This document shows positions 2,330 to 12,639 of a stretch of DNA of 50,383 bases, piece after piece. Origin of the DNA: an uncultured Anaerolineaceae bacterium (GTDB taxonomy: Bacteria > Chloroflexota > Anaerolineae > Anaerolineales > Anaerolineaceae); NCBI GenBank assembly GCA_927443345.1, contig CAKMKJ010000054.1:1-50383 (forward strand), in the 5' to 3' direction. Every line of letters begins with the position of its first letter. Position 1 is the stretch's first letter. The notes under the pieces were generated by a model. That model was not told the DNA's origin. It was given only the letters and a program-made list of their open reading frames with translations, and did no database searches. The position numbers and the translations under genes were made by a program.

Positions 2330-4222
2330 ATGGCGATCACGATTTTCCTTGTTTTTGTATTTTTTGTTATCGGTCTTTCTCTGTTTTTGGGTAATAAAAC
2401 CAAAACCTCAAAGGCATATTACGCTGCTGGTGGAAACATCCATTGGGGCGTGAATGGTATTGCCTTTGCGGGTGATTATTTATCTGCTGCATCCTTCCTC
2501 GGTATCTGTGGAATGATTGCCACCCTGGGGTTTGACGGCTTTCTTTATTCAATCGGTTACCTGGCAGGCTGGATCGTGGCTTTGTTTGTAGTGGCTGAAC
2601 CACTAAAACGTCTCGGTAAATATACCTTTACCGATGCCGTGGATGCAAATTACAACTCCCGCGGAATCAAACTTACTGCCGCGATCAGCACCCTCGTGGT
2701 CTCGATATGCTACCTCATCCCACAAATGGTTGGTGCTGGTGTCTTGGTGCAGCCGCTATTAGGTTTGCCTCACGCATGGGGAGTAATCATGGTGGGTGCG
2801 ATTGTGATTACGATCGTTGCCACCGCAGGCATGGCATCTACAACTTACGTGCAATTTATTAAGGGATTGCTTTTAATAGTTTTCTCATCAATCCTTGTAG
2901 GGGCTGTGGTCGTTAGAGGTTTATCGACACAACCCGACCAGGGCGGAACGGTAGAGTTTCATCGCTATGCAGATCTTTCAGCACAAATCAGCGGTGATCA
3001 AATAGTGGTTGATGATCCTAAATATACTGTTTTAGACCAACAAGAGATCAAGGGAGGCTATAAATTTGTTAACCTCTCTTCTGAAGGCCTGGAGACCTGG
3101 TGGTACGTTTCAGAAACTGGATCAGGAATCGTCCTTCACGAAACGCAATCAACCGTCCTTAAGGCTGATGGCAAGTGGATTAACGGCGCCATCGAATCTG
3201 ATTCCAATACGCTGAGAATGGTTGGAAACCTCGAGAAAATCGATGGAGAAGGAAACGTAGAAACCGGAAAACTCAACGTATTCAGTTTTCTGGCCAAGTT
3301 AAGTGATAAAGATACTATTTTTAGAACATGGAAAACCGCTAATTTTGTCGATAGTGCAAACCAAAAAGTAACGGTCTACTATCCCCAACTTGTGACCGGA
3401 GACCAGTTTATGCGGCCCGGGCTCAAGTTTAAGGTTGAAGGAACCGGTCTCGAAAAGCTTGATTTTCTATCACTTATGATCGCCCTCTTCCTTGGAACGG
3501 CAGCGTTACCCCATATTCTGATCCGCTACTATACGGTACCCAACCCTGCCAGTGCCAGAAAATCGACCATCATTGCCATTGCGGCCATTGGATTTTTCTA
3601 TATCCTTACCTTGTTTATGGGTCTTGGCGCAGCAATTAATGGCAGTATAAATCCGGCAGACAGCAATATGTCTGCGCCCTTACTGGCCAGGTCATTCAGT
3701 GAGATCTTGTTTGCGATTATATCTGCCATTGCCTTTGCCACCGTCCTCGGTACTGTCAGTGGATTAATTGTGGCTGCTTCTGGCGCAGTTGCCCACGACC
3801 TTTTTGATCGCTACTTGAAGATAAAAATGACCGATCAACAAAAAGTGCGGGCAGGTAAAATTACCGCTTTTGTGATTGGTGGAATTGCAATCTTGCTGGG
3901 TATCCTTTTCAAGGGAATTAATGTTTCATTCCTGGTTGGATTGGCCTTCGCGGTTGCAGCTTCAGCCAACTTGCCGGCCATTATCATGCTGTTGTTTTGG
4001 AAGAAGACTACTGCAAAGGGTATCGCGGCTTCAATCACGATTGGTATCTTGTCCTCACTGATCCTGATTGCATTATCACCGGAACTCTATACACTCTATG
4101 GAAGAAATCCGTTGGATGCACCTGTGCCCCTCAACAATCCGGGCATTATATCCATCCCGTTGAGCTTCATCACCCTTGTTGTTGTCTCACTGTTAACACA
4201 GAAGAAAAAAGAAATCGAATAA
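2330..4222 (+). CDS. Sodium:solute symporter, acetate permease (ActP-like) with a large soluble insertion
   Basis: A 630-residue secondary transporter of the SSS family, ActP-like branch, probably importing acetate or another short monocarboxylate with a cation. Family landmarks include GDYLSAASFLGICG near residues 50-60, LVSICYLIPQMVGAG near 120-140 and LPHILIRYYTVPN near 390-405. E. coli ActP is about 549 residues. Here roughly 160 mostly polar residues (about 200-375) are inserted between two membrane segments, including a tryptophan-rich patch (LETWWYVSET). That segment probably forms a soluble domain on one membrane face. A GGAGAG site lies just upstream of the start. A strong terminator follows the gene. 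Confidence 0.88.
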   Translation: MAITIFLVFVFFVIGLSLFLGNKTKTSKAYYAAGGNIHWGVNGIAFAGDYLSAASFLGICGMIATLGFDGFLYSIGYLAGWIVALFVVAEPLKRLGKYTFTDAVDANYNSRGIKLTAAISTLVVSICYLIPQMVGAGVLVQPLLGLPHAWGVIMVGAIVITIVATAGMASTTYVQFIKGLLLIVFSSILVGAVVVRGLSTQPDQGGTVEFHRYADLSAQISGDQIVVDDPKYTVLDQQEIKGGYKFVNLSSEGLETWWYVSETGSGIVLHETQSTVLKADGKWINGAIESDSNTLRMVGNLEKIDGEGNVETGKLNVFSFLAKLSDKDTIFRTWKTANFVDSANQKVTVYYPQLVTGDQFMRPGLKFKVEGTGLEKLDFLSLMIALFLGTAALPHILIRYYTVPNPASARKSTIIAIAAIGFFYILTLFMGLGAAINGSINPADSNMSAPLLARSFSEILFAIISAIAFATVLGTVSGLIVAASGAVAHDLFDRYLKIKMTDQQKVRAGKITAFVIGGIAILLGILFKGINVSFLVGLAFAVAASANLPAIIMLLFWKKTTAKGIAASITIGILSSLILIALSPELYTLYGRNPLDAPVPLNNPGIISIPLSFITLVVVSLLTQKKKEIE

Positions 4223-4231
4223 TTATTAATT

Positions 4232-4274
4232 GAGACTGAATGTTCGTGAACAGGAACATTCAGTCTCTTTTTTT
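4232..4274 (+). terminator. Strong rho-independent terminator
   Basis: Perfect 14-base arms (4232-4245 and 4254-4267) with an eight-base loop are followed by seven T residues (4268-4274), ten bases after the symporter stop. Confidence 0.92.
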
Positions 4275-4345: not shown

Positions 4346-7300
4346 ATGACGCAAAATATTCTGGTCAATTTGCATTGTCACTCAATGTTTAGCGATGGCG
4401 AGTTCACGCCTGAGGCTTTGGCTGAAATGTTGGCTGCTAATAATGTGCGTTATGCCTCGCTCACAGACCATGACACCATTGAAGGCCAGCAAAGATTCCA
4501 AGCTGCACTAAAAAAAGTGGGGGTCGAGTATATTCCAGGCGTTGAACTTACCACCTTCCTCGAAGGACAGGAAGTCCATCTTCTGGGATATGGATTTAAT
4601 GTTGATGACCCTGATTTGAACAGTACCATGCTCTCCATCCGCCAGCACAAGGTGCTTGATAATGTGAGCATCGCCGGATCAATGCGCAAAAGAAGCACCA
4701 ATCAAATTGACGCAGACAAACTCAGCCATCGCAACAGCGTCCAATCGGGGACAATCGAAACCAGTGATGGCATCAGACTCATCCACAATGCGGGTGGTTG
4801 TGTCTTTCTGGCACACCCTTTAACACTTGATAATCAACCTGAAAAACTAATTCCGTTAATCAAGAAACTCAAAGCCCTGGGTCTGGATGGCATTGAAGCA
4901 ATCTATGCTGAACACTCACAGGCCGATCAAAATATGATGCTGGCTTGTGCCGACGATGAAGAAATGCTGGTGTGTTCAGGCACAGACTTTCACTCTAAAA
5001 TGCACAACCCCTCAATTGAGATAGAGCGTGAGCGGTGGGTGAAACTGCGCTCAAAGATATTTTCGAGTCAGGGATTTTTTGGAGCCACAAAATTAAATTC
5101 AGCCAATCAGCCTGGACAACAATCTGCACCCTTCAAACCGCCAGAGCGGCATCACCATTTTCAAAAACGAACCTTCATCTTAAGAATATTTTTGCCTACA
5201 TTTTTTGCCATTGCGCTTTTTCTGGCTGCCATATGGGTTTTTGTCATTCCATCATTTGAAAACACGCTGCTTGATCGAAAGCGGGAACTTATTCGTGAAT
5301 TAACGAATTCAGCCATCAGTATTCTCACTTCTTACCATAAAGAAGAGCTGTCTGGCAGCATGTCTCGTGCAGATGCTCAAGCCTTTGCCATAGACCGGGT
5401 TCAATCATTGCGTTATGGTGTTGAAGATAAAGATTATTTTTGGATTCAGGATCTCAAGCCCACTATGATTATGCATCCATATCGGCCAGAATTGAATGGC
5501 GAAGACTTGCTGGATTTCAAAGATGCCCGGGGCGTGAGAATTTTTGTTGAGTTTTCTAACCTGGTTCAGCGCCAGAGTGAAGGTTACATCGACTATGTGT
5601 GGCAGTGGAAGGATGATCCTGACCGTTTGGAACCCAAAGAATCTTTTGTAAAACTTTTTGAACCCTGGGGATGGATCATTGGCACGGGACTCTACATTGA
5701 TGATGTAAACCTGGAAATTGCCAAAATCGAAAAAAATATCACAACAACCTCTGTTATTGTTTCTGTCATCATCATCTTGCTACTGCTTTATGTGCTTCAA
5801 CAATCTTTGCAGATAGAAAAAGGCCGTCAAGACGTGTTGGATGAATTAAAAGAATCGACTGAACGTTATCATTCCGTAATTGAAACAATGACCGAGGGAA
5901 CCTTATTGGTGATTGATAACAGATGCCGGTATGCGAATTCTACTTTTATCAATATGATCGGATATTCTGAATCTCAACTTCCGTTTTTGGATTTGGAAGA
6001 CATATTGCCCCGGTCTGTTGAAAATCAGGGAATTTGGGAAAATGTCACCCAAACAGACCCAAAGAAAATTACCTTTGGTAAAGCTGTGGATGGCTTTTTG
6101 CAGAATAAAGATGGACAGCTTGTCGATTGCATCCTGATGCTCAATCCCATCCAATATATCAATCAAAATGGTTTCATTCTTCTCGCCAGAGATATAGCCC
6201 ACCAATCAATTTTGCTCGCCAGCGATGGGTTATCTAAAGCAGTGAATAGTATTGATGTCGGTGTGTTCAGGGCCAGGGCAGTGCGGAGAGGCGTCTTTTT
6301 GGAGATTAACCCTGCTGGTTATTCGCTGCTGCCTGATGAATGTAAAACCGATGGCGCACAGCCGGCTTTGGCGGATCTTTTTCATGATGCGGTAGAGTAT
6401 GATCAGTTCATTAATAACCTACGTCAAAACGGGCAAGTAAATGACTTGATTCTGAAACTGGACCCCGGAAATTTTGAAAGTTTGAACGTTGCGCTTTCGG
6501 CAAACCTTGAGCTGGATGAAGCCGGCCAACCCTATATAATTACCGGGCTGCTCAAAGATGTTACTCAAACCCAGAAACTGCTAACAGATCGAGAAGGGTT
6601 AATCAATAAACTGCAGGCTTCGCTTTTGTTTTTCCATGAACCCTTGTCGAAACTTGAAAGAGCCATTGTAACTTGCGAAATTAATACGACTATTCATCAG
6701 GTTTCAAGTCTGATGAGTAAGAAAAACATGTCGGCGGCTTTGATCACCGCGGACAATGGTGATACCCTGGGCATCATCACCGACCACGATTTGCGTGAAC
6801 GTGTCATTTCTCAAAAATTGGATTTTAACAAGCCTGCATATTCTGTAATGACTTCGCCAATTGTGAGTATTAATGAGAGTGCGATGATCTATGAAGCCAT
6901 GATAAAAATGGAGGAAAAAGGTGTTCGTCATCTGGCAGTAGAGGATGACAGCGGGCAGGTTGTAAACCTTGTGGACTCAAAGATGCTTGCTCAATTCCCC
7001 CGGTATGGCGCTTACATTCTGACACAAGAAATCGCAAAAACCACAACCATAGAAGAATTAGCCAGCACCAACCAGCGCAAACAAAAAGTGGTGAAGGTGT
7101 TATTAGAAAGCAGTCACAATGTCAGCCATGCCACCAGGTTGCTTTCATCCATTTTTGATTCTTCAACTGAACGGATCATTCAATTGGTGATCGATGAAAT
7201 AGGCCCTCCACCCACTGCATTTGCGTTTATTGGTATGGGCAGTCAGGGCAGGCAGGAGCCGACCTTGGTTACCGATCAAGATAACGGCATTATTTATTTT

Positions 7301-8041
7301 GACAAAGGTGAAAATCAATCCTATTTTCTTGAATTAGGTCAAAAAGTCTCACAGGGATTAAACGCGATTGGCATTAATTATTGTGAGGGCAAGGTGATGT
7401 CGAGCAACCCTGCCTGGTGCAAACCACTTGAAAGTTGGAAAAAGGACTTTAACCGTTGGATCACCACCCCTGCGTCTCAAGAAATGCTTGACCTTTCGAT
7501 ATTTTTTGATTTCAGGTTGGTATACGGCGAAACACAATTAGTTCAGGCGCTGCGAAATCACGTTAGTGCTTCACTGCAAGACCGGAGTGATTTCTTCCAT
7601 TTGTTCGCCAAACAAGCCCAAAAATACAAACCGCCTTCGCGTGGATTCAGCAGTGGTTTATTAGGCATGGGTTCGGGTGAATCAAGTGAACGTGAAATAA
7701 ACTTGAAAGACTTAACCATGCCGATTGTCAATTTTGCACGCCTTTATTCTTTAAAGTATAATATTTTTCAGACCAACACCATTGAACGGTTGAACATGCT
7801 TGCCAATCGGGGAATCATCTCTGCCACTACTTATGAAGAATTGTCAACAACGTATGAGTATGTGATGCTGATGCGAGTAAAAAATCAAATTTGGCAAATT
7901 GATTCAGGCCAACAAGCTGATAATAGTGTTCAGTTTGGCAAAATGGCTGACCTTCATCAAACCCGGCTGCGTGAAACCCTCGCACTCATTTCAATTCTTC
8001 AAAAAAGAATTTCTTTTGATTTTCTGGGCGGGATTCAATGA
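4346..8041 (+). CDS. PHP phosphoesterase - Cache sensor - PAS - CBS - DUF294 nucleotidyltransferase fusion receptor
   Basis: A 1231-residue membrane protein with a rare domain order. Residues 1-240 form a PHP metal-dependent phosphoesterase with its ligand residues in place: H10, H12, D17, D41-H42, E67, H78, H157, D214 and H216. A transmembrane helix (277-302), an extracytoplasmic Cache sensor (about 310-455, with YFWIQD and GWIIGTGLYIDD) and a second helix (467-487) follow. PAS (498-620), a second PAS-like segment (625-745), a CBS pair (765-885) and a DUF294 nucleotidyltransferase (905-1055; GSQGRQE at 965-971, D977, D979) with its C-terminal domain (1085-1225) complete it. The start at 4346 lacks a good ribosome site. 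It follows the symporter, as CBS-DUF294 genes often do, so it may sense or control uptake. The enzymatic substrate is unknown. Confidence 0.85.
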   Translation: MTQNILVNLHCHSMFSDGEFTPEALAEMLAANNVRYASLTDHDTIEGQQRFQAALKKVGVEYIPGVELTTFLEGQEVHLLGYGFNVDDPDLNSTMLSIRQHKVLDNVSIAGSMRKRSTNQIDADKLSHRNSVQSGTIETSDGIRLIHNAGGCVFLAHPLTLDNQPEKLIPLIKKLKALGLDGIEAIYAEHSQADQNMMLACADDEEMLVCSGTDFHSKMHNPSIEIERERWVKLRSKIFSSQGFFGATKLNSANQPGQQSAPFKPPERHHHFQKRTFILRIFLPTFFAIALFLAAIWVFVIPSFENTLLDRKRELIRELTNSAISILTSYHKEELSGSMSRADAQAFAIDRVQSLRYGVEDKDYFWIQDLKPTMIMHPYRPELNGEDLLDFKDARGVRIFVEFSNLVQRQSEGYIDYVWQWKDDPDRLEPKESFVKLFEPWGWIIGTGLYIDDVNLEIAKIEKNITTTSVIVSVIIILLLLYVLQQSLQIEKGRQDVLDELKESTERYHSVIETMTEGTLLVIDNRCRYANSTFINMIGYSESQLPFLDLEDILPRSVENQGIWENVTQTDPKKITFGKAVDGFLQNKDGQLVDCILMLNPIQYINQNGFILLARDIAHQSILLASDGLSKAVNSIDVGVFRARAVRRGVFLEINPAGYSLLPDECKTDGAQPALADLFHDAVEYDQFINNLRQNGQVNDLILKLDPGNFESLNVALSANLELDEAGQPYIITGLLKDVTQTQKLLTDREGLINKLQASLLFFHEPLSKLERAIVTCEINTTIHQVSSLMSKKNMSAALITADNGDTLGIITDHDLRERVISQKLDFNKPAYSVMTSPIVSINESAMIYEAMIKMEEKGVRHLAVEDDSGQVVNLVDSKMLAQFPRYGAYILTQEIAKTTTIEELASTNQRKQKVVKVLLESSHNVSHATRLLSSIFDSSTERIIQLVIDEIGPPPTAFAFIGMGSQGRQEPTLVTDQDNGIIYFDKGENQSYFLELGQKVSQGLNAIGINYCEGKVMSSNPAWCKPLESWKKDFNRWITTPASQEMLDLSIFFDFRLVYGETQLVQALRNHVSASLQDRSDFFHLFAKQAQKYKPPSRGFSSGLLGMGSGESSEREINLKDLTMPIVNFARLYSLKYNIFQTNTIERLNMLANRGIISATTYEELSTTYEYVMLMRVKNQIWQIDSGQQADNSVQFGKMADLHQTRLRETLALISILQKRISFDFLGGIQ

Positions 8042-8107
8042 TACAGCGTTAGATTTAGAGAATTCGGGGCTCATTATTTTCGCAAACTTGTCTATACATC
8101 TTCTTTC

Positions 8108-8136
8108 TTGACTGATCCTTTCGGCTGATCTATAAT
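8108..8136 (+). promoter_or_regulatory. Sigma-70-type promoter for the SAM hydrolase/ECF operon
   Basis: TTGACT at 8108-8113, a 17-base spacer and a perfect TATAAT at 8131-8136. It sits 33 bases before the operon's first start codon, a near-consensus vegetative promoter. Confidence 0.8.
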
Positions 8137-8169
8137 TCACTTTTCACCATTTCACATTAAAGGGTTGTA

Positions 8170-8973
8170 ATGCCTATCATTACTTTATTAACTGATTTCG
8201 GTTTACGCGATACCTTCATCGGTGTGATGAAGGGTGTCATCTGGTCAATTTCACCTAATAAACATATCGTTGACTTAACGCATGAGATTCCGGCTCAGCG
8301 CGTGGTGGATGGCGCACTTGCCATTGCCGGTGCAGCGCCTTACTTCCCGGCTGGTACGATTCATGTCTGTGTGGTTGACCCCGGCGTGGGAACCGCCCGC
8401 CGCCCCATGCTGGCGGCGATTGGCGATCAATATTTTATAGGACCCGATAACGGGCTGTTCAGCCTGCTCATTAAAAAGGCTGAAGATCTGACCATTCCGC
8501 CCGTGTATATTGCGCTCAACAAGACTCATTATTGGCTGCCGCAGGTTTCGAACAGCTTTCACGGACGCGATATTTTTGCACCCGTGGCGGCTCATTTGGC
8601 AAATGGTGTGAAACTAGAAGAGTTGGGCGATCCGTTTAACAACCCTGTCTTAATCACCATCCCCGTGCCGCAAAAAAATGAAGACGGCTGGCTCGGTCAG
8701 GTGATGCAGGTGGACCATTTTGGCAACCTGGTGACCAACATCACCCGCGAACAACTCAAACCCGATACCGGGGTTACTATTTCTGTGAAAAATACGACGA
8801 TTAATGAAGTGGTGGCTACTTTTGGCAGCAAACCGGCTGGCGAACTGATCGCGATGTTTGATTCAAGTGGATATCTGGCCATTTCAGTAGTCAATGGCAG
8901 CGCAGCAGAACAGCTCTGCGTGCGAGCTGATGAGATTGTGCGCCTCACACTATCATCGGAGCAAGCCTCATGA
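8170..8973 (+). CDS. SAM hydroxide adenosyltransferase (DUF62/SAM hydrolase family)
   Basis: A 267-residue enzyme of the DUF62 family, related to fluorinase and chlorinase, whose usual members split S-adenosylmethionine to adenosine and methionine with water. It has the N-terminal LLTDFGLRDTFIGVMKG, the VDPGVGTARR loop, GPDNGLFSLL and NSFHGRDIFAPVAAHLA, all typical of the hydrolase branch. The C-terminal domain has DHFGNLVTNI. It is the first gene of an operon: its stop overlaps the start of the ECF ATPase (ATGA, 8970-8973) and a near-consensus promoter lies upstream. The context suggests adenosine, methionine or SAM turnover linked to ECF uptake, which is inference. Confidence 0.9.
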   Translation: MPIITLLTDFGLRDTFIGVMKGVIWSISPNKHIVDLTHEIPAQRVVDGALAIAGAAPYFPAGTIHVCVVDPGVGTARRPMLAAIGDQYFIGPDNGLFSLLIKKAEDLTIPPVYIALNKTHYWLPQVSNSFHGRDIFAPVAAHLANGVKLEELGDPFNNPVLITIPVPQKNEDGWLGQVMQVDHFGNLVTNITREQLKPDTGVTISVKNTTINEVVATFGSKPAGELIAMFDSSGYLAISVVNGSAAEQLCVRADEIVRLTLSSEQAS

Positions 8974-10604
8974 CCAGCGTAAAACCACTGTTAATTGATA
9001 ACCTTAACTTTCGCTATCACAGCCGTGAGACGTTGGCAATTAAAAATATCTCCCTTAGCGTGGATGCCGGCCAGGTGCTGCTGATTGCCGGTGCCAGCGG
9101 CTGCGGCAAGACCACCCTGGCGCGCTGCATCAACGGACTCATTCCGCGCAGTTACAAGGGCGAACTCACCGGCGAGATACTGCTCAACGGCAAGGATGTG
9201 ACCAAGCTCAGTCTAGCGCAGGTCTCACAAATTGTAGGCACCGTGCTGCAAGACCCAGAACGTCAGATCCTCGGCACCAAGGTAGCCAATGAAGTGGCAT
9301 TCGGGCTTGAAAACCTGAGCCTGCCGCGCGAAGAGATCATCGAACGGGTGGCCGAAGCGCTTGACCATCTCAAAATTCCCCAACTCTTGAACCGCGAGAC
9401 CTTTCATCTCTCGGGCGGCGAAAAACAAAAGGTTGCCCTGGCTGGCGTGCTTGCCATGCGCCCCTCCATTTTGCTGCTCGATGAACCGCTGGCTTCACTT
9501 GACCCTGCCTCTGCCCAAGATGCGCTGGATATCATCCGCAGTCTGGCGGATGAGGGCATGACTGTGCTCATGGTTGAGCACCGCGTTGAAGATGTGTTGA
9601 GAATCCACCCCGAAAACGCCATTTTTATGATGGACGGCGAAATCAAGTATTACGGCCCCACCAGTGGATTTGATAAAACGGTCGATTATCACGAAGTTAA
9701 ACTGCCCGCCGAGATGATCATCGAACGCGCCAAAGTTGACCCAGCCCCACAACGCCTGACAACACTGCGCAAAGAAACAGTGGTTGGCAGGGGCAAACAG
9801 ATGGGCGAACCGTTGGTGATGTTTGAAGACATTGCCTTTTGGTACGAAGAAGGCCGCCCGGTGCTTCACAATGTCAATTTCACCATCAACCGCGGCGATG
9901 TGATTGCCGTCCTCGGACCGAACGGCGCAGGCAAAACTACTTTGGTGAAGCACGCTATCGGCCTGCTCAAACCTAAATCGGGGCGCATGACCATTGATGG
10001 CAAAGACAGCAGCCAAACCAGCGTGGCGCAGATCGCCCAGACGCTCGGCTATGTTTTTCAAAGCCCCAGCCATATGCTCTTCGCTCCCACCGTCGAAGAG
10101 GAGCTGGCTTTTGGGCCGACCAACCTGAAGCATTCCAAAGAAGTGATTCCGCAAGAAGTGGCCAATGCACTTGAGATTGTAAACTTGAGTGGACACGAAA
10201 AATATCCACCTCTGGCGCTCTCGTTCGGTCAGCAAAAACGGGTCAGTATTGCGGCTATTCTGGCGATGCAATCCAGGATTCTGGTGATGGATGAGCCCAC
10301 TGCCGGTCAGGACTACAAGAATTACCTGGGCTTTATGGATTCCATTTTGCAAATGCCCGGTTTTGATGCCATCCTGTTTATCACACATGATATTGATATG
10401 GCTGTGATCTACGCCAACCGCGTGATCATGGTCAACGACGGCACCCTGGTTTGTGATGCTGCACCTCCTGAAGCGCTCAAAAAATTTGATTTTCTGCGCA
10501 AGAATCGGCTGGTGCCTACATCGCTGCTCAAAACCAATCTTGACCTGTTACCTAAAACCGGTCGGTTTTACAGCGCCGAAGAGTTGGCGCATGTGGTACA
10601 TTAA
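8970..10604 (+). CDS. ecfA: ECF transporter ATPase, two ABC domains fused (EcfA)
   Basis: A 544-residue cytoplasmic protein holding both ATPase halves of an energy-coupling factor importer. The first domain has Walker A GASGCGKTT (41-49), LSGGEKQK and LLLDEPLASLDP. The second has GPNGAGKTT, LSFGQQKR and LVMDEPTAGQDY. In many bacteria the two ATPases are separate genes (ecfA1 and ecfA2); here they are one chain joined by a linker of about 50 residues. The start overlaps the DUF62 stop by four bases. EcfS and EcfT follow, so the whole importer is in this operon. GC content here is higher than in the flanking regions. Confidence 0.92.
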   Translation: MTSVKPLLIDNLNFRYHSRETLAIKNISLSVDAGQVLLIAGASGCGKTTLARCINGLIPRSYKGELTGEILLNGKDVTKLSLAQVSQIVGTVLQDPERQILGTKVANEVAFGLENLSLPREEIIERVAEALDHLKIPQLLNRETFHLSGGEKQKVALAGVLAMRPSILLLDEPLASLDPASAQDALDIIRSLADEGMTVLMVEHRVEDVLRIHPENAIFMMDGEIKYYGPTSGFDKTVDYHEVKLPAEMIIERAKVDPAPQRLTTLRKETVVGRGKQMGEPLVMFEDIAFWYEEGRPVLHNVNFTINRGDVIAVLGPNGAGKTTLVKHAIGLLKPKSGRMTIDGKDSSQTSVAQIAQTLGYVFQSPSHMLFAPTVEEELAFGPTNLKHSKEVIPQEVANALEIVNLSGHEKYPPLALSFGQQKRVSIAAILAMQSRILVMDEPTAGQDYKNYLGFMDSILQMPGFDAILFITHDIDMAVIYANRVIMVNDGTLVCDAAPPEALKKFDFLRKNRLVPTSLLKTNLDLLPKTGRFYSAEELAHVVH

Positions 10605-10675
10605 TAATTGGCAACACAACCTTTATTAAGGTTTTAAATTGGTTCCAACCGTCATAATTTCTAAAGGAGGATAGT

Positions 10676-11605
10676 ATGCAAAAGTGGTTAAAAGTTGTAC
10701 TTTCGTTGCTGGCCGTATTGGCCTTCTTCCTGGGTGTTTGGCTGATCGGACGTATGATCAACCCCAACCTCAACCTGGATGAAACCGCACTGCTGCGCTT
10801 TGTGTTCGTGGGCATTGGCTTGCTCATCGTGCTGGTGGTTTACCTGTTGACCAGCAAGAATAAAATGTGGGAAGTCGGCACCCGACAGGTCGTTTACATG
10901 GCCATTGGCGCTGCACTCTTCGCTATTTTCTCCTACCTGTTTAATGGAACAGTCTTCGTTGTGCCTTCCGTAAGCCAGGTTGCATTGCGCCCCGCCATCG
11001 CCATCCCCATGTTCTTTGGCTATGCCTTTGGGCCTGTGGTGGGCTTTTTCACCGGTGCAGTCGGCAATATGTTCGGCGATGCCCTCACCGGTTTCGGCCT
11101 CTCTCCGCAGTGGAGTGTGGGTAATGGTCTTGTGGGTCTCATCAGTGGTATGGTCTGGCTCTTCGCAGACAAGAAGAAAAGCATCAATGTTGTGTTATTA
11201 GTCAGCGCTGTTTTGGCCGCTGCAATAACCGTATATTACTTCTTGAACCCGTCAACCTCCAACGCCATGTTCTTTGATGTTGATAATGGCATTTTCGGCG
11301 ACGCCCAAATTTCGATGTTTGCCGGCGTTTCTGTCTTAATCGGTCTGGCCATCGTCTTGATCGTGCGCTTTGTGTTTGGCAAGAACATTGATGTCGCTGC
11401 TGCAGTCACCTGGGCTATGCTTGGTAACCTGGTAGGCATTGGCTTTGCCGCCATTTCAGATATCTGGATCAATGGCTATCCCCCAGTGGTCGCTCTGGTG
11501 GGTGAGTTTCTGCCTGCTGCCGGCCCGAACTTGATCTTTGCTGCTATCCTGGTTCCCATCCTTGTGGCAGCTTATGCTGCAGTTCAGAAACAAACCGGAC
11601 GCTAG
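10676..11605 (+). CDS. ECF transporter substrate-binding S component
   Basis: A 309-residue integral membrane protein, long for an S component (usually about 180-200). The core motif region, with RPAIAIPMFFGYAFGPVVG, TGAVGNMFGDALTG and a GNGLVGLISG block, is typical of ECF S components that bind the substrate in the membrane. Two extra N-terminal helices (about residues 5-27 and 40-60) precede the core, and a long loop-plus-helix segment follows. AAAGGAGG at the end of the 71-base gap gives a strong ribosome site. The substrate cannot be named from sequence. Linkage to SAM hydrolase makes a nucleoside, methionine-like or cofactor-related ligand worth testing. Confidence 0.82.
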   Translation: MQKWLKVVLSLLAVLAFFLGVWLIGRMINPNLNLDETALLRFVFVGIGLLIVLVVYLLTSKNKMWEVGTRQVVYMAIGAALFAIFSYLFNGTVFVVPSVSQVALRPAIAIPMFFGYAFGPVVGFFTGAVGNMFGDALTGFGLSPQWSVGNGLVGLISGMVWLFADKKKSINVVLLVSAVLAAAITVYYFLNPSTSNAMFFDVDNGIFGDAQISMFAGVSVLIGLAIVLIVRFVFGKNIDVAAAVTWAMLGNLVGIGFAAISDIWINGYPPVVALVGEFLPAAGPNLIFAAILVPILVAAYAAVQKQTGR

Positions 11606-11661
11606 ATTTAGTAAAAAGTGGACCTTTTTCGTAGCTAGTACTGAAAAGCTAGTAAATTTTG

Positions 11662-11713
11662 CCTCACCCCCAACCCCCTCTCCATCCATGGATGGAGAGG
11701 GGCAGGGGAGAGG
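11662..11713. repeat. C-rich/G-rich palindromic intergenic repeat
   Basis: A near-perfect palindrome of about 52 bases: C-rich blocks (CCTC, CCCCC, CCCCCTCTCC) are mirrored by G-rich blocks around a central CCATGG. It lies between ecfS and ecfT. The motif resembles dispersed REP-like elements I know from Chloroflexota and other genomes. It would form a strong hairpin in the mRNA and could stabilise the upstream message or lower ecfT expression. Confidence 0.7.
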
Positions 11714-11778
11714 TCGGAGTTAAAGAGTTTAATATTATTAAATGATTTTTGAGATTTGATAGTTTAGAGAGAGAAACC

Positions 11779-12639
11779 ATGCTGGTTGCCTGGCGCTATA
11801 AACAACGCAATTCATTGCTGCAGAGTTTTGACCCAAGAGCCTGGATCATCTTTTTTAGCTGTTTTCTGGCTGGAACAGTGGTCTTTTGGGATTTTCGCTA
11901 CCTGCTTTTCTTTTTCGCTATCGCGCTGCTCTTCGTGTTTACCTCCCGCATCCCATGGAAGGATATGTCGCGCGCCTGGCTCTTTATCATTGGCTTTATT
12001 CTATTTTTTTCTGTTTTAACCTTTTTTACAGGTCGCGGCGGCATGGAACTTTATACGACGGAACACACGCTGACCAAGCTGGTGGCCACTTTTCAAATCT
12101 TTGGTTGGACGCCCACGCTCAACATCACCGCGGAAAAAACCATGTATGCTGTCAGTATGTTGATCCGCGTGTTCAGCATCGCCAGTATGACCATTTTGAT
12201 CCCCTATTCATTCAACCCGGCACATTACGGCATCATCTTCCGCGGACTCGGGCTGCCAGACAAAGTGGCCTACGGTATGGATCTGACCATGCGCTTTATC
12301 CCCACCTTTGGACGCGACTTTAGTCTGACCATGGATGCCCAAAAAGCGCGTGGGTATGAGATCGAAAAACTGGGCGGCGGCCTTTTTGCACAGGTGAGAA
12401 AACTGGCACCTTTGATCGTGCCGGTTACCATCCATGCCATTGCGGGCAGTGAAGACATCATTGACGCCATGGATTTACGTGCCTTTGGCGTCGGTCCGCG
12501 CACGTGGCTGGAGAAGTTGACTTACCGCAAGCGCGACTACATGCTGATCGGGTTCGGTGTTGTGATCTTGCTCGTCTCGGTGGCGTTGTCGCTGCTGGGC
12601 TTCGGCAAGTTTTGGGTGCCTGCGTTTTTAATCGGTTAA
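11779..12639 (+). CDS. ecfT: ECF transporter transmembrane component EcfT
   Basis: A 286-residue membrane protein that couples the ECF ATPase to the S component. It has an N-terminal helix cluster, then cytoplasmic coupling motifs: the Ala-Arg-Gly signature in MDAQKARGYE (around residue 190) and the second in AMDLRAFGVG (about 230-240). ATG at 11779 is preferred over an upstream TTG at 11749 because it follows AGAGAGAGAAACC and gives a typical N-terminus. It is separated from ecfS by a palindromic repeat but belongs to the same importer. Confidence 0.88.
   Translation: MLVAWRYKQRNSLLQSFDPRAWIIFFSCFLAGTVVFWDFRYLLFFFAIALLFVFTSRIPWKDMSRAWLFIIGFILFFSVLTFFTGRGGMELYTTEHTLTKLVATFQIFGWTPTLNITAEKTMYAVSMLIRVFSIASMTILIPYSFNPAHYGIIFRGLGLPDKVAYGMDLTMRFIPTFGRDFSLTMDAQKARGYEIEKLGGGLFAQVRKLAPLIVPVTIHAIAGSEDIIDAMDLRAFGVGPRTWLEKLTYRKRDYMLIGFGVVILLVSVALSLLGFGKFWVPAFLIG

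Follow-up and report, generated by a model that had tools for sequence, protein, structure and literature searches.

Why should a single bacterial receptor carry both a nucleotidyltransferase and a phosphoesterase, and why should its gene stand beside that of a probable monocarboxylate transporter? The question is raised by a 50,383-nucleotide stretch of DNA (hereafter, the window) from an uncultured Anaerolineaceae bacterium (contig CAKMKJ010000054.1 of assembly GCA_927443345.1, which comprises 3.67 Mb in 94 contigs). One gene in the window (4346–8041; forward strand, as are all window features given below) encodes a 1,231-residue protein in which PHP, a membrane helix, Cache, a second membrane helix, PAS, two CBS motifs, DUF294 and DUF294_C follow one another. 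We propose that this receptor is a membrane-bound writer-eraser switch, and we give an even chance to the core of the proposal, namely that an external two- or three-carbon (C2/C3) acid gates the reversible nucleotidylation of a target protein, whichever that is.

The receptor open reading frame (ORF) is uninterrupted from the ATG at 4346 through the stop at 8041. Judged against the curated Pfam cut-offs in bits, with listing at E 0.001, it contains PHP (PF02811, residues 9–107; 36.9, cut-off 26.4), which places the N-terminal part in the PHP phosphoesterase superfamily, sCache_2 (residues 310–463; 124.2, cut-off 25), PAS (residues 506–617, 5861–6196; 29.5, cut-off 22.6), two CBS stretches that are a possible adenylate sensor (residues ~766–885, 6641–7000; 61.1, cut-off 24), DUF294 (PF03445, residues 912–1044; 143.3, cut-off 21) and DUF294_C (PF10335, residues 1082–1226; 103, cut-off 22.5). 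No Pfam domain matched residues 622–745, after PAS, a stretch that is conserved among close relatives. By hydropathy, the Cache domain is bracketed by two hydrophobic stretches (residues ~275–309, 5168–5272, and ~461–491, 5726–5818), so that PHP and the PAS-CBS-transferase part would both be cytosolic. An earlier note on this DNA, made from the letters alone, had claimed just such a single chain, with two membrane helices around the Cache domain and with the PHP residues and transferase signature intact. Domain search, architecture survey and structure prediction found every one of these parts, together with a GlnE-like transferase fold.

Misassembly is ruled out as the source of this architecture: PHP and transferase share one frame in 42 ORFs, the window's included, and the fusion is therefore no assembly error. 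In the wider survey described below, PHP was part of one chain in 54 ORFs (near-copies included) and stood in a separate frame in four relatives (L033, L047, L083 and L087, where L denotes a surveyed locus), which are perhaps frame splits. The closest named relatives are Chloroflexota/Anaerolineaceae loci (L032, L033 and L056; best-segment identity 79–85%), and loci with the PHP-DUF294 fusion come from Chloroflexota, Armatimonadota (including Zipacnadia), Lentisphaerae, Verrucomicrobia and Fermentibacteria; no viral relatives were confirmed. The fusion is patchy in its distribution among genomes of the class. Among the matches listed for 396 of these genomes, a near full-length receptor occurs in three genomes, the window's own and two more with 51% and 48% identity, and a shorter PHP-bearing form in four others.

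The predicted writer is the DUF294 domain (7079–7477), which bears a GSxGRxE motif and D977-Q-D979. In an alignment of 41 fused proteins (truncated L048 was dropped and near-copies were kept; L008 and L080 look alike) the motif is nearly invariant, with G965, S966, R969 and D977 in all 41, D979 in 40 and G968 in 36. More widely, both catalytic aspartates are present in 150 of 160 aligned transferase rows, the reference being counted twice. We modelled DUF294 together with the helical DUF294_C domain (7589–8023) from a 55-sequence alignment, with a predicted local distance difference test (pLDDT) score of 91. The nearest solved folds are the two halves of the adenylyltransferase GlnE (Z 27.4 and 26.4) and the AMPylase DrrA (25.2), each matched over 301–312 residues, followed by a DrrA fragment at 12.5 and then by matches at 9.2 or below, including the small-molecule nucleotidyltransferases, and HalB at 6.7; the top four Foldseek matches are the same GlnE/DrrA proteins. 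The predicted model has the two-domain fold of GlnE/DrrA-type protein adenylyltransferases, although identity is only 12–14% and sensors and targets differ. GlnE and DrrA are protein-modifying enzymes, and GlnE removes its own mark via a second transferase-like half. A shared fold is no proof of function; of the two options that the earlier note had left, a nucleotide mark and a nucleotide signal, the model favours a mark on a protein, and that the nucleotide is adenosine monophosphate (AMP) is guessed from the fold. DUF294_C has been grouped with GlnD/GlnE-type domains in a paper on HEPN domains (PMC3710099).

The predicted eraser, PHP (residues 1–265; 4346–5140), was recognized by Pfam, NCBIfam, alignment and structure match, and its predicted ligand residues are intact. 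H42, E67, H157 and D214 are present in all 41 aligned fused proteins, while H10, H12, D17 and D41 are present in 40 (one gap), as are H78 (one aspartate) and H216 (one glycine); the motif containing D41 aligns with solved PHP structures. The best NCBIfam match is 3',5'-nucleoside bisphosphate phosphatase (NF041577; 117.6 bits, equivalog cut-off 400), and PHP also matches RNase RNM (NF047791; 95.2 bits, equivalog cut-off 375) and the 5'-3' exoribonuclease structure 7ug9. Likeness to the phosphatase and to RNase RNM lies in the metal-ligand motifs and these best family matches, whereas the window PHP falls far below both cut-offs, is fused to a receptor and has only ~37 residues between its two matched parts, compared to ~74 in 2YB1. 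This short stretch may leave the site more open.

Which eraser stands beside the transferase in relatives was surveyed from 67 related loci and genome searches. The surroundings of 178 DUF294 ORFs were examined; five were dropped for too short a region and 14 were merged at 90% identity, leaving 159 rows. The survey was non-random, being seeded from relatives of the window protein and the phyla that hold them: genomes were taken for 14 of 14 matching Myxococcota, 4 of 4 Elusimicrobiota, 9 of 9 Armatimonadota, 22 of 32 from the phylum of L051 and 38 of 71 from that of L065, along with 40 regions of Chloroflexota matches. The DEDD exonuclease and phosphoesterase profiles were built partly from neighbours later found, which favours the counts in PHP-less loci. 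PHP occurs only together with Cache (46 of the 159 rows). A DEDD exonuclease is adjacent in 57 rows (51 soluble, 6 Cache) and lies 3–5.5 kb downstream in 14 (soluble, Chloroflexota), while a calcineurin-like phosphoesterase is found in 8 and DUF6915 in 6 (four fused in the PHP position and two as the next gene).

PHP and the other candidate erasers exclude each other. Among rows whose flanks were known for 1.2 kb or more to either side (11 of the 46 PHP rows had too little flank), an adjacent DEDD exonuclease was found in 0 of 35 PHP rows vs 54 of 106 PHP-less rows (Fisher p 2e-9, kinship ignored). Similarly, among Cache rows, any other candidate eraser, fused or within 6 kb, was found in 0 of 35 with PHP vs 21 of 26 without; the latter count includes the exonuclease of L069, which lies in a divergent partner operon and was scored as 'none' on the trees. 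PHP and an adjacent exonuclease are thus mutually exclusive, in agreement with the earlier suggestion that PHP fills the role of the exonuclease. A chance neighbourhood is ruled out by the tally of neighbours and by background counts. The only immediate same-strand neighbours seen in more than 5 of the 159 loci were SSF (49), DEDD exonuclease (43) and DUF485 (12), the next family reaching 5. RNase_T gave 26 matches in ~39 Mb of nine genomes (0–5 per genome), or ~0.3 expected per 106 neighbourhoods, and for the phosphoesterase eight genomes gave 1–7 matches each. The partner proteins have kept the motif residues of exonucleases and phosphoesterases; RNase_T is borne out by Pfam in L067 and L200, and Metallophos in L070, L199 and L225, and the other cases rest on our own profiles.

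DUF6915 is fused before Cache, in the PHP position, in L172:5414–8020, L174, L175, L181 and L093:7665–8642, and is a separate gene next to a PHP-less DUF294 in L169:6650–6985 and L170:9026–9361. At the Pfam cut-off of 27 bits only L093 passes (31.1), with L170 at 22 and no score for L169; the fused cases were linked by our own profile. A single-sequence model of the L093 domain was poor (pLDDT 52). DUF6915 is a candidate new hydrolase family. Calcineurin-like phosphoesterase genes stand beside a PHP-less Cache-DUF294 in L070:15174–15869, L075, L081, L086, L161, L162, L199:10921–11679, L206 and L225:4631–5422, after the SSF gene in Elusimicrobiota and, in three relatives that belong to the phylum of L065, 33–67 bases upstream. 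Genes that look alike by eye lie convergent to a PHP-less Cache-DUF294 in L191:9444–10280 and L192:3262–4092, the former being AP_endonuc_2 by Pfam; this type is possibly another partner or a chance neighbour and, because the gene is convergent, AP_endonuc_2 was left out as an eraser. Finally, four Myxococcota loci contain a second, soluble DUF294 gene beside the receptor and exonuclease (L063:9428–11380, L067:9023–11347, L068:2136–3956 and, divergent, L069:8045–9970). As these have lost one or both catalytic aspartates, inactive DUF294 versions do exist, and the four may be inactive regulators.

What the receptor would sense is suggested by its extracytoplasmic sCache_2 domain (5273–5734), whose best solved relatives are PscD (5g4y) and 4k08. 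PscD binds glycolate, acetate and propionate at 23–101 μM, and pyruvate more weakly; its pocket residues are Tyr90, Trp92, His103, Phe126, Met129, Tyr143, Trp145 and Lys156 (PMC5062169). The receptor equivalents in our alignment are Y364, W366, H377, F400, F403, Y417, W419 and K431, so that seven of the eight named residues are identical and only Met129 is replaced (F403). All 72 Cache sequences compared have the same seven residues, and 66 of them have F403 (this comparison omits two Cache rows whose matches were short). The domain also matches the model of the sensor kinase MctS, below its cut-off. Because these pocket residues are shared with PscD, a C2/C3 monocarboxylate is predicted as the ligand with fair confidence, as the earlier idea of an external sensor for short carboxylates would have it; affinities differ even among sensors with identical pockets (PMC5062169). 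The pocket for acetate, glycolate, propionate and pyruvate is common to the PscD/Adeh_3718 chemoreceptor sensors, where the output domain serves chemotaxis, whereas the output here is a nucleotidyltransferase. A second Cache domain in the same genome (G000:C62:6568–7176) is 33% identical, and the match has one internal TAA.

In the mechanism that we propose, Cache would bind acetate, glycolate, propionate, pyruvate or a similar C2/C3 monocarboxylate outside the cell, as the identity of the pocket suggests. The signal would travel via the second helix and PAS/CBS, where CBS may add adenylate sensing, and would set the balance between two cytosolic enzymes of one chain. The C-terminal DUF294 domain would modify a hydroxyl group on a partner protein with a nucleotide, most probably AMP; the PHP domain at the N-terminus would remove this mark by hydrolysis. 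The likeliest single partner would be the neighbouring DUF485/SSF transporter, and the mark would most likely lower uptake; that the transporter is indeed the target is possible but doubtful. PHP-less relatives would rely for erasure on a DEDD exonuclease encoded separately, on a calcineurin-like phosphoesterase or perhaps on DUF6915. What the data show directly is the domain content, the conservation of residues, the association of the genes, the pattern of exclusion and a fold modelled with confidence; both activities, AMP, the target, the direction of the effect and the ligand are parts of the proposal that we infer. A broader reading is that DUF294 proteins are widespread reversible protein-nucleotidylation switches for monocarboxylate uptake with an exchangeable eraser (PHP in cis, DEDD or calcineurin-like in trans, and DUF6915, a hydrolase not yet recognized, in cis or trans), of which the window protein would be a one-chain, ligand-gated membrane analogue of GlnD; this we hold only tentatively, at somewhat below an even chance.

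GlnD is a bifunctional uridylyltransferase/uridylyl-removing enzyme with transferase, HD hydrolase and ACT domains in one chain. Like GlnD, the receptor places a Pol-beta-type transferase, a helical C-terminal domain and a phosphohydrolase in a single chain governed by sensor domains. By contrast with GlnD, it has PHP for HD and Cache/PAS/CBS for ACT, is membrane-bound and carries its hydrolase at the N-terminus, and neither HD nor ACT is in its Pfam list at E 0.001. By analogy, the best reading is that the receptor is a functional counterpart of GlnD and not GlnD itself; by family, it is a DUF294 protein of unusual architecture. The receptor also resembles the soluble CBS-DUF294 proteins paired with a 3'-5' exonuclease (PP_0354/PP_0353; PA3232–PA3235) in DUF294, CBS and the association with DUF485 and an ActP-type symporter. 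It differs from them in adding Cache and PAS and in holding PHP in cis where the separate exonuclease would be; indeed, no DEDD exonuclease lies within 6 kb of the window gene.

The putative target genes lie upstream of the receptor. The first (1988–2326) encodes a DUF485-like small membrane protein that scores 23.7 bits, under the Pfam cut-off of 28, and is conserved beside receptor homologues. The second (2330–4222) encodes a 630-residue, MctC/ActP-like SSF symporter that is a probable monocarboxylate transporter. The earlier note had called it an acetate symporter. SSF membership stands, but the best NCBIfam models, MctC (433 bits, cut-off 670) and ActP (320, cut-off 1099), do not allow either equivalog to be assigned, so that the name is likely and not certain. 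Across the matched stretch the symporter is ~135 residues longer than the VC_2705 family model, and this long SSF type accompanies Cache-DUF294: together with DUF485 it is found in 6 of 6 DEDD-Cache rows and 28 of 46 PHP rows, and it may pair with the Cache sensor. The gap between symporter and receptor is just 6–34 bases in L034, L038, L039, L044, L046, L051, L052 and L057, where the two may be co-transcribed. Conserved residues of the DUF485-like protein follow an internal MLHEP, which suggests that its true start is the ATG at 2033. A tyrosine at the end of its second hydrophobic stretch (2258–2260) does not vary among the 51 homologues aligned; that it is a modification site is speculative.

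Published genetics bear on the soluble relatives. The exonuclease pp_0353 and the DUF294-type pp_0354 form one operon in P. putida, and their P. aeruginosa homologues adjoin actP and yjcH (PMC9927547); the PA3232–PA3235 cluster includes an actP homologue (PMC9765439). We take pp_0354 as a DUF294 protein because it is described as a homologue of Pflu5625, a cyclic-AMP-binding, CBS and nucleotidyltransferase protein (PMC5715377). Two annotated plasmids have DUF294 beside an exonuclease gene, and a Paracoccus alcaliphilus plasmid (L232) has an acs-DUF485-symporter-DUF294 cluster with a split exonuclease nearby (7557–9219, annotated as two fragments on either side of an IS5-like transposase). The Proteobacterial neighbourhood of DUF485-symporter, CBS-DUF294 and exonuclease, named in the earlier note, is therefore real. 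Growth of P. putida on pyruvate is delayed by deletion of pp_0353 and not by that of pp_0354, and is also impaired by deletion of actP-I; in another group's transposon data, actP-I and pp_0353 behave alike at low acetate (as reported in PMC9927547). These phenotypes fit a scheme in which DUF294 inhibits the transporter and its partner relieves it: without the eraser, the writer would keep the transporter off, and loss of the writer would be silent.

Several observations weigh against this proposal. No candidate eraser is within reach in 28 of the 159 rows, and 10 of the 160 aligned transferase rows (reference counted twice) are without one or both catalytic aspartates. On the trees, as few as 4 or 3 changes account for the eraser types of 66 Cache rows (the second tree holding Cache rows only, under LG+G4 without mixture), and exclusion between PHP and the other erasers comes down to 1–3 independent pairs, which is not significant. 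On the Cache-only tree, PHP needs 3 changes, of which the starred branches force 1, and it lies on one side of a branch in 0% of bootstrap trees, a result compatible with a single origin or with several. The exchange of erasers is thus plain as a pattern, though few evolutionary events stand behind it. As to the transporter, the long SSF type is missing from the vicinity of 17 of the 46 PHP rows (7 of them with another SSF, 10 with none at all), and 52 of the 85 soluble DUF294 rows have no SSF close by, so the target need not be this transporter. In the window itself, an intrinsic-terminator-like hairpin of 14 pairs followed by a T run (4232–4267) parts the transporter genes from the receptor and makes their co-transcription doubtful; the scan found 9 such sites in the region vs 6.5 in shuffles, and this one has by far the longest stem. 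P. putida pp_0353 and pp_0354 mutants grow normally on 20 mM acetate, where deletion of actP-I is likewise without effect (PMC9927547), P. fluorescens DUF294, DUF485 and actP deletions have a negligible effect on acetate (PMC5715377), and a PA3234 deletion does not affect growth of P. aeruginosa on propionate, where PA3232–PA3235 are up during growth but PA3233–PA3235 are down once propionate has been added (PMC9765439). The interpretation in the earlier note was supported in part, by the neighbourhood, the exclusion pattern, the conserved residues and the Cache pocket; it made no mention of the calcineurin-like phosphoesterase, DUF6915 or the hairpin.

Other readings of the same genes have to be weighed. 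Within the nucleotidylation switch, the marked partner could instead be soluble, for example acetyl-CoA synthetase or some regulator, with which the transporter would only share the signal. The absence of a nearby SSF from 37 of 51 soluble DUF294 rows with adjacent DEDD, and the acs gene beside DUF485-symporter-DUF294 on the Paracoccus plasmid, speak for this variant, but no other family adjoins DUF294 directly as often as SSF (49 of 159 loci), and the long SSF type recurs with DUF485 beside Cache-DUF294 as given above; we consider the variant unlikely. Equally unlikely, in our estimate, is that DUF294 makes a small nucleotide signal which PHP destroys, the signal acting on the transporter or elsewhere. 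In its favour, small nucleotides are cut by some members of the PHP, DEDD and calcineurin-like families, NCBIfam places the PHP domain nearest to a nucleoside bisphosphate phosphatase, if far below cut-off, and a nucleotide could be read by CBS domains. Yet the modelled writer is far nearer to GlnE/DrrA (Z 25–27) than to HalB, and no dedicated signal receptor recurs among the neighbours, SSF, DEDD and DUF485 being the only families found immediately on the same strand in more than 5 loci.

A third reading would have DUF294 extend the end of an RNA by added nucleotides and leave the trimming of RNA to PHP or DEDD, tuning mRNA or tRNA. It could draw on the matches of PHP to RNase RNM (below cut-off) and to 7ug9, on the two scanned DEDD partners that belong to the RNase_T family, and on mRNA decay, the role suggested by the P. 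putida authors (PMC9927547). Against it, no nucleic-acid polymerase comes near the GlnE/DrrA matches among the best 50 listed, and what PHP, DEDD and calcineurin-like enzymes would have in common is phosphodiester cleavage rather than one RNA substrate; we regard it as decidedly unlikely. That the fusion is a relic in which PHP or DUF294 is just a structural or regulatory module is, in our estimate, very unlikely, for although the second DUF294 genes of the four Myxococcota loci have lost catalytic aspartates, 40–41 of the 41 fused proteins retain the PHP ligand positions, and the transferase aspartates persist in 41 and 40 of them.

Certain phyla are rich in DUF294-type proteins (for instance, 71 of 247 genomes in the phylum of L065), which appear in papers as uncharacterized members of the acetate-utilization regulon (e.g., PMC5715377). 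A description of the PHP-DUF294 fusion or of eraser exchange was not found in the open-access papers searched, most subscription papers and preprints being outside their scope; there, too, no paper matched the combination of PHP, CBS, Cache and transferase, and the AMPylation papers among the matches listed do not name a PHP domain. The exchange of unrelated phosphoesterases beside one transferase offers a concrete hypothesis, suggesting a widespread yet unrecognized on/off switch whose remover, in relatives, would be one of several unrelated neighbouring proteins. It would explain why the exonuclease mutant resembles the transporter mutant on pyruvate (PMC9927547). If true, it would add a post-translational layer to the control of acetate and pyruvate uptake, provide a one-chain construct suited to biochemistry and predict an activity for DUF6915.

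Downstream of the receptor, the window (8170–12639) contains a SAM hydroxide adenosyltransferase gene beside ECF-type transporter genes (a double ATPase, an S component and a CbiQ-like T component), and SAM hydroxide adenosyltransferase/ECF genes are also found 3' of the receptor in L032, L033 and L056.

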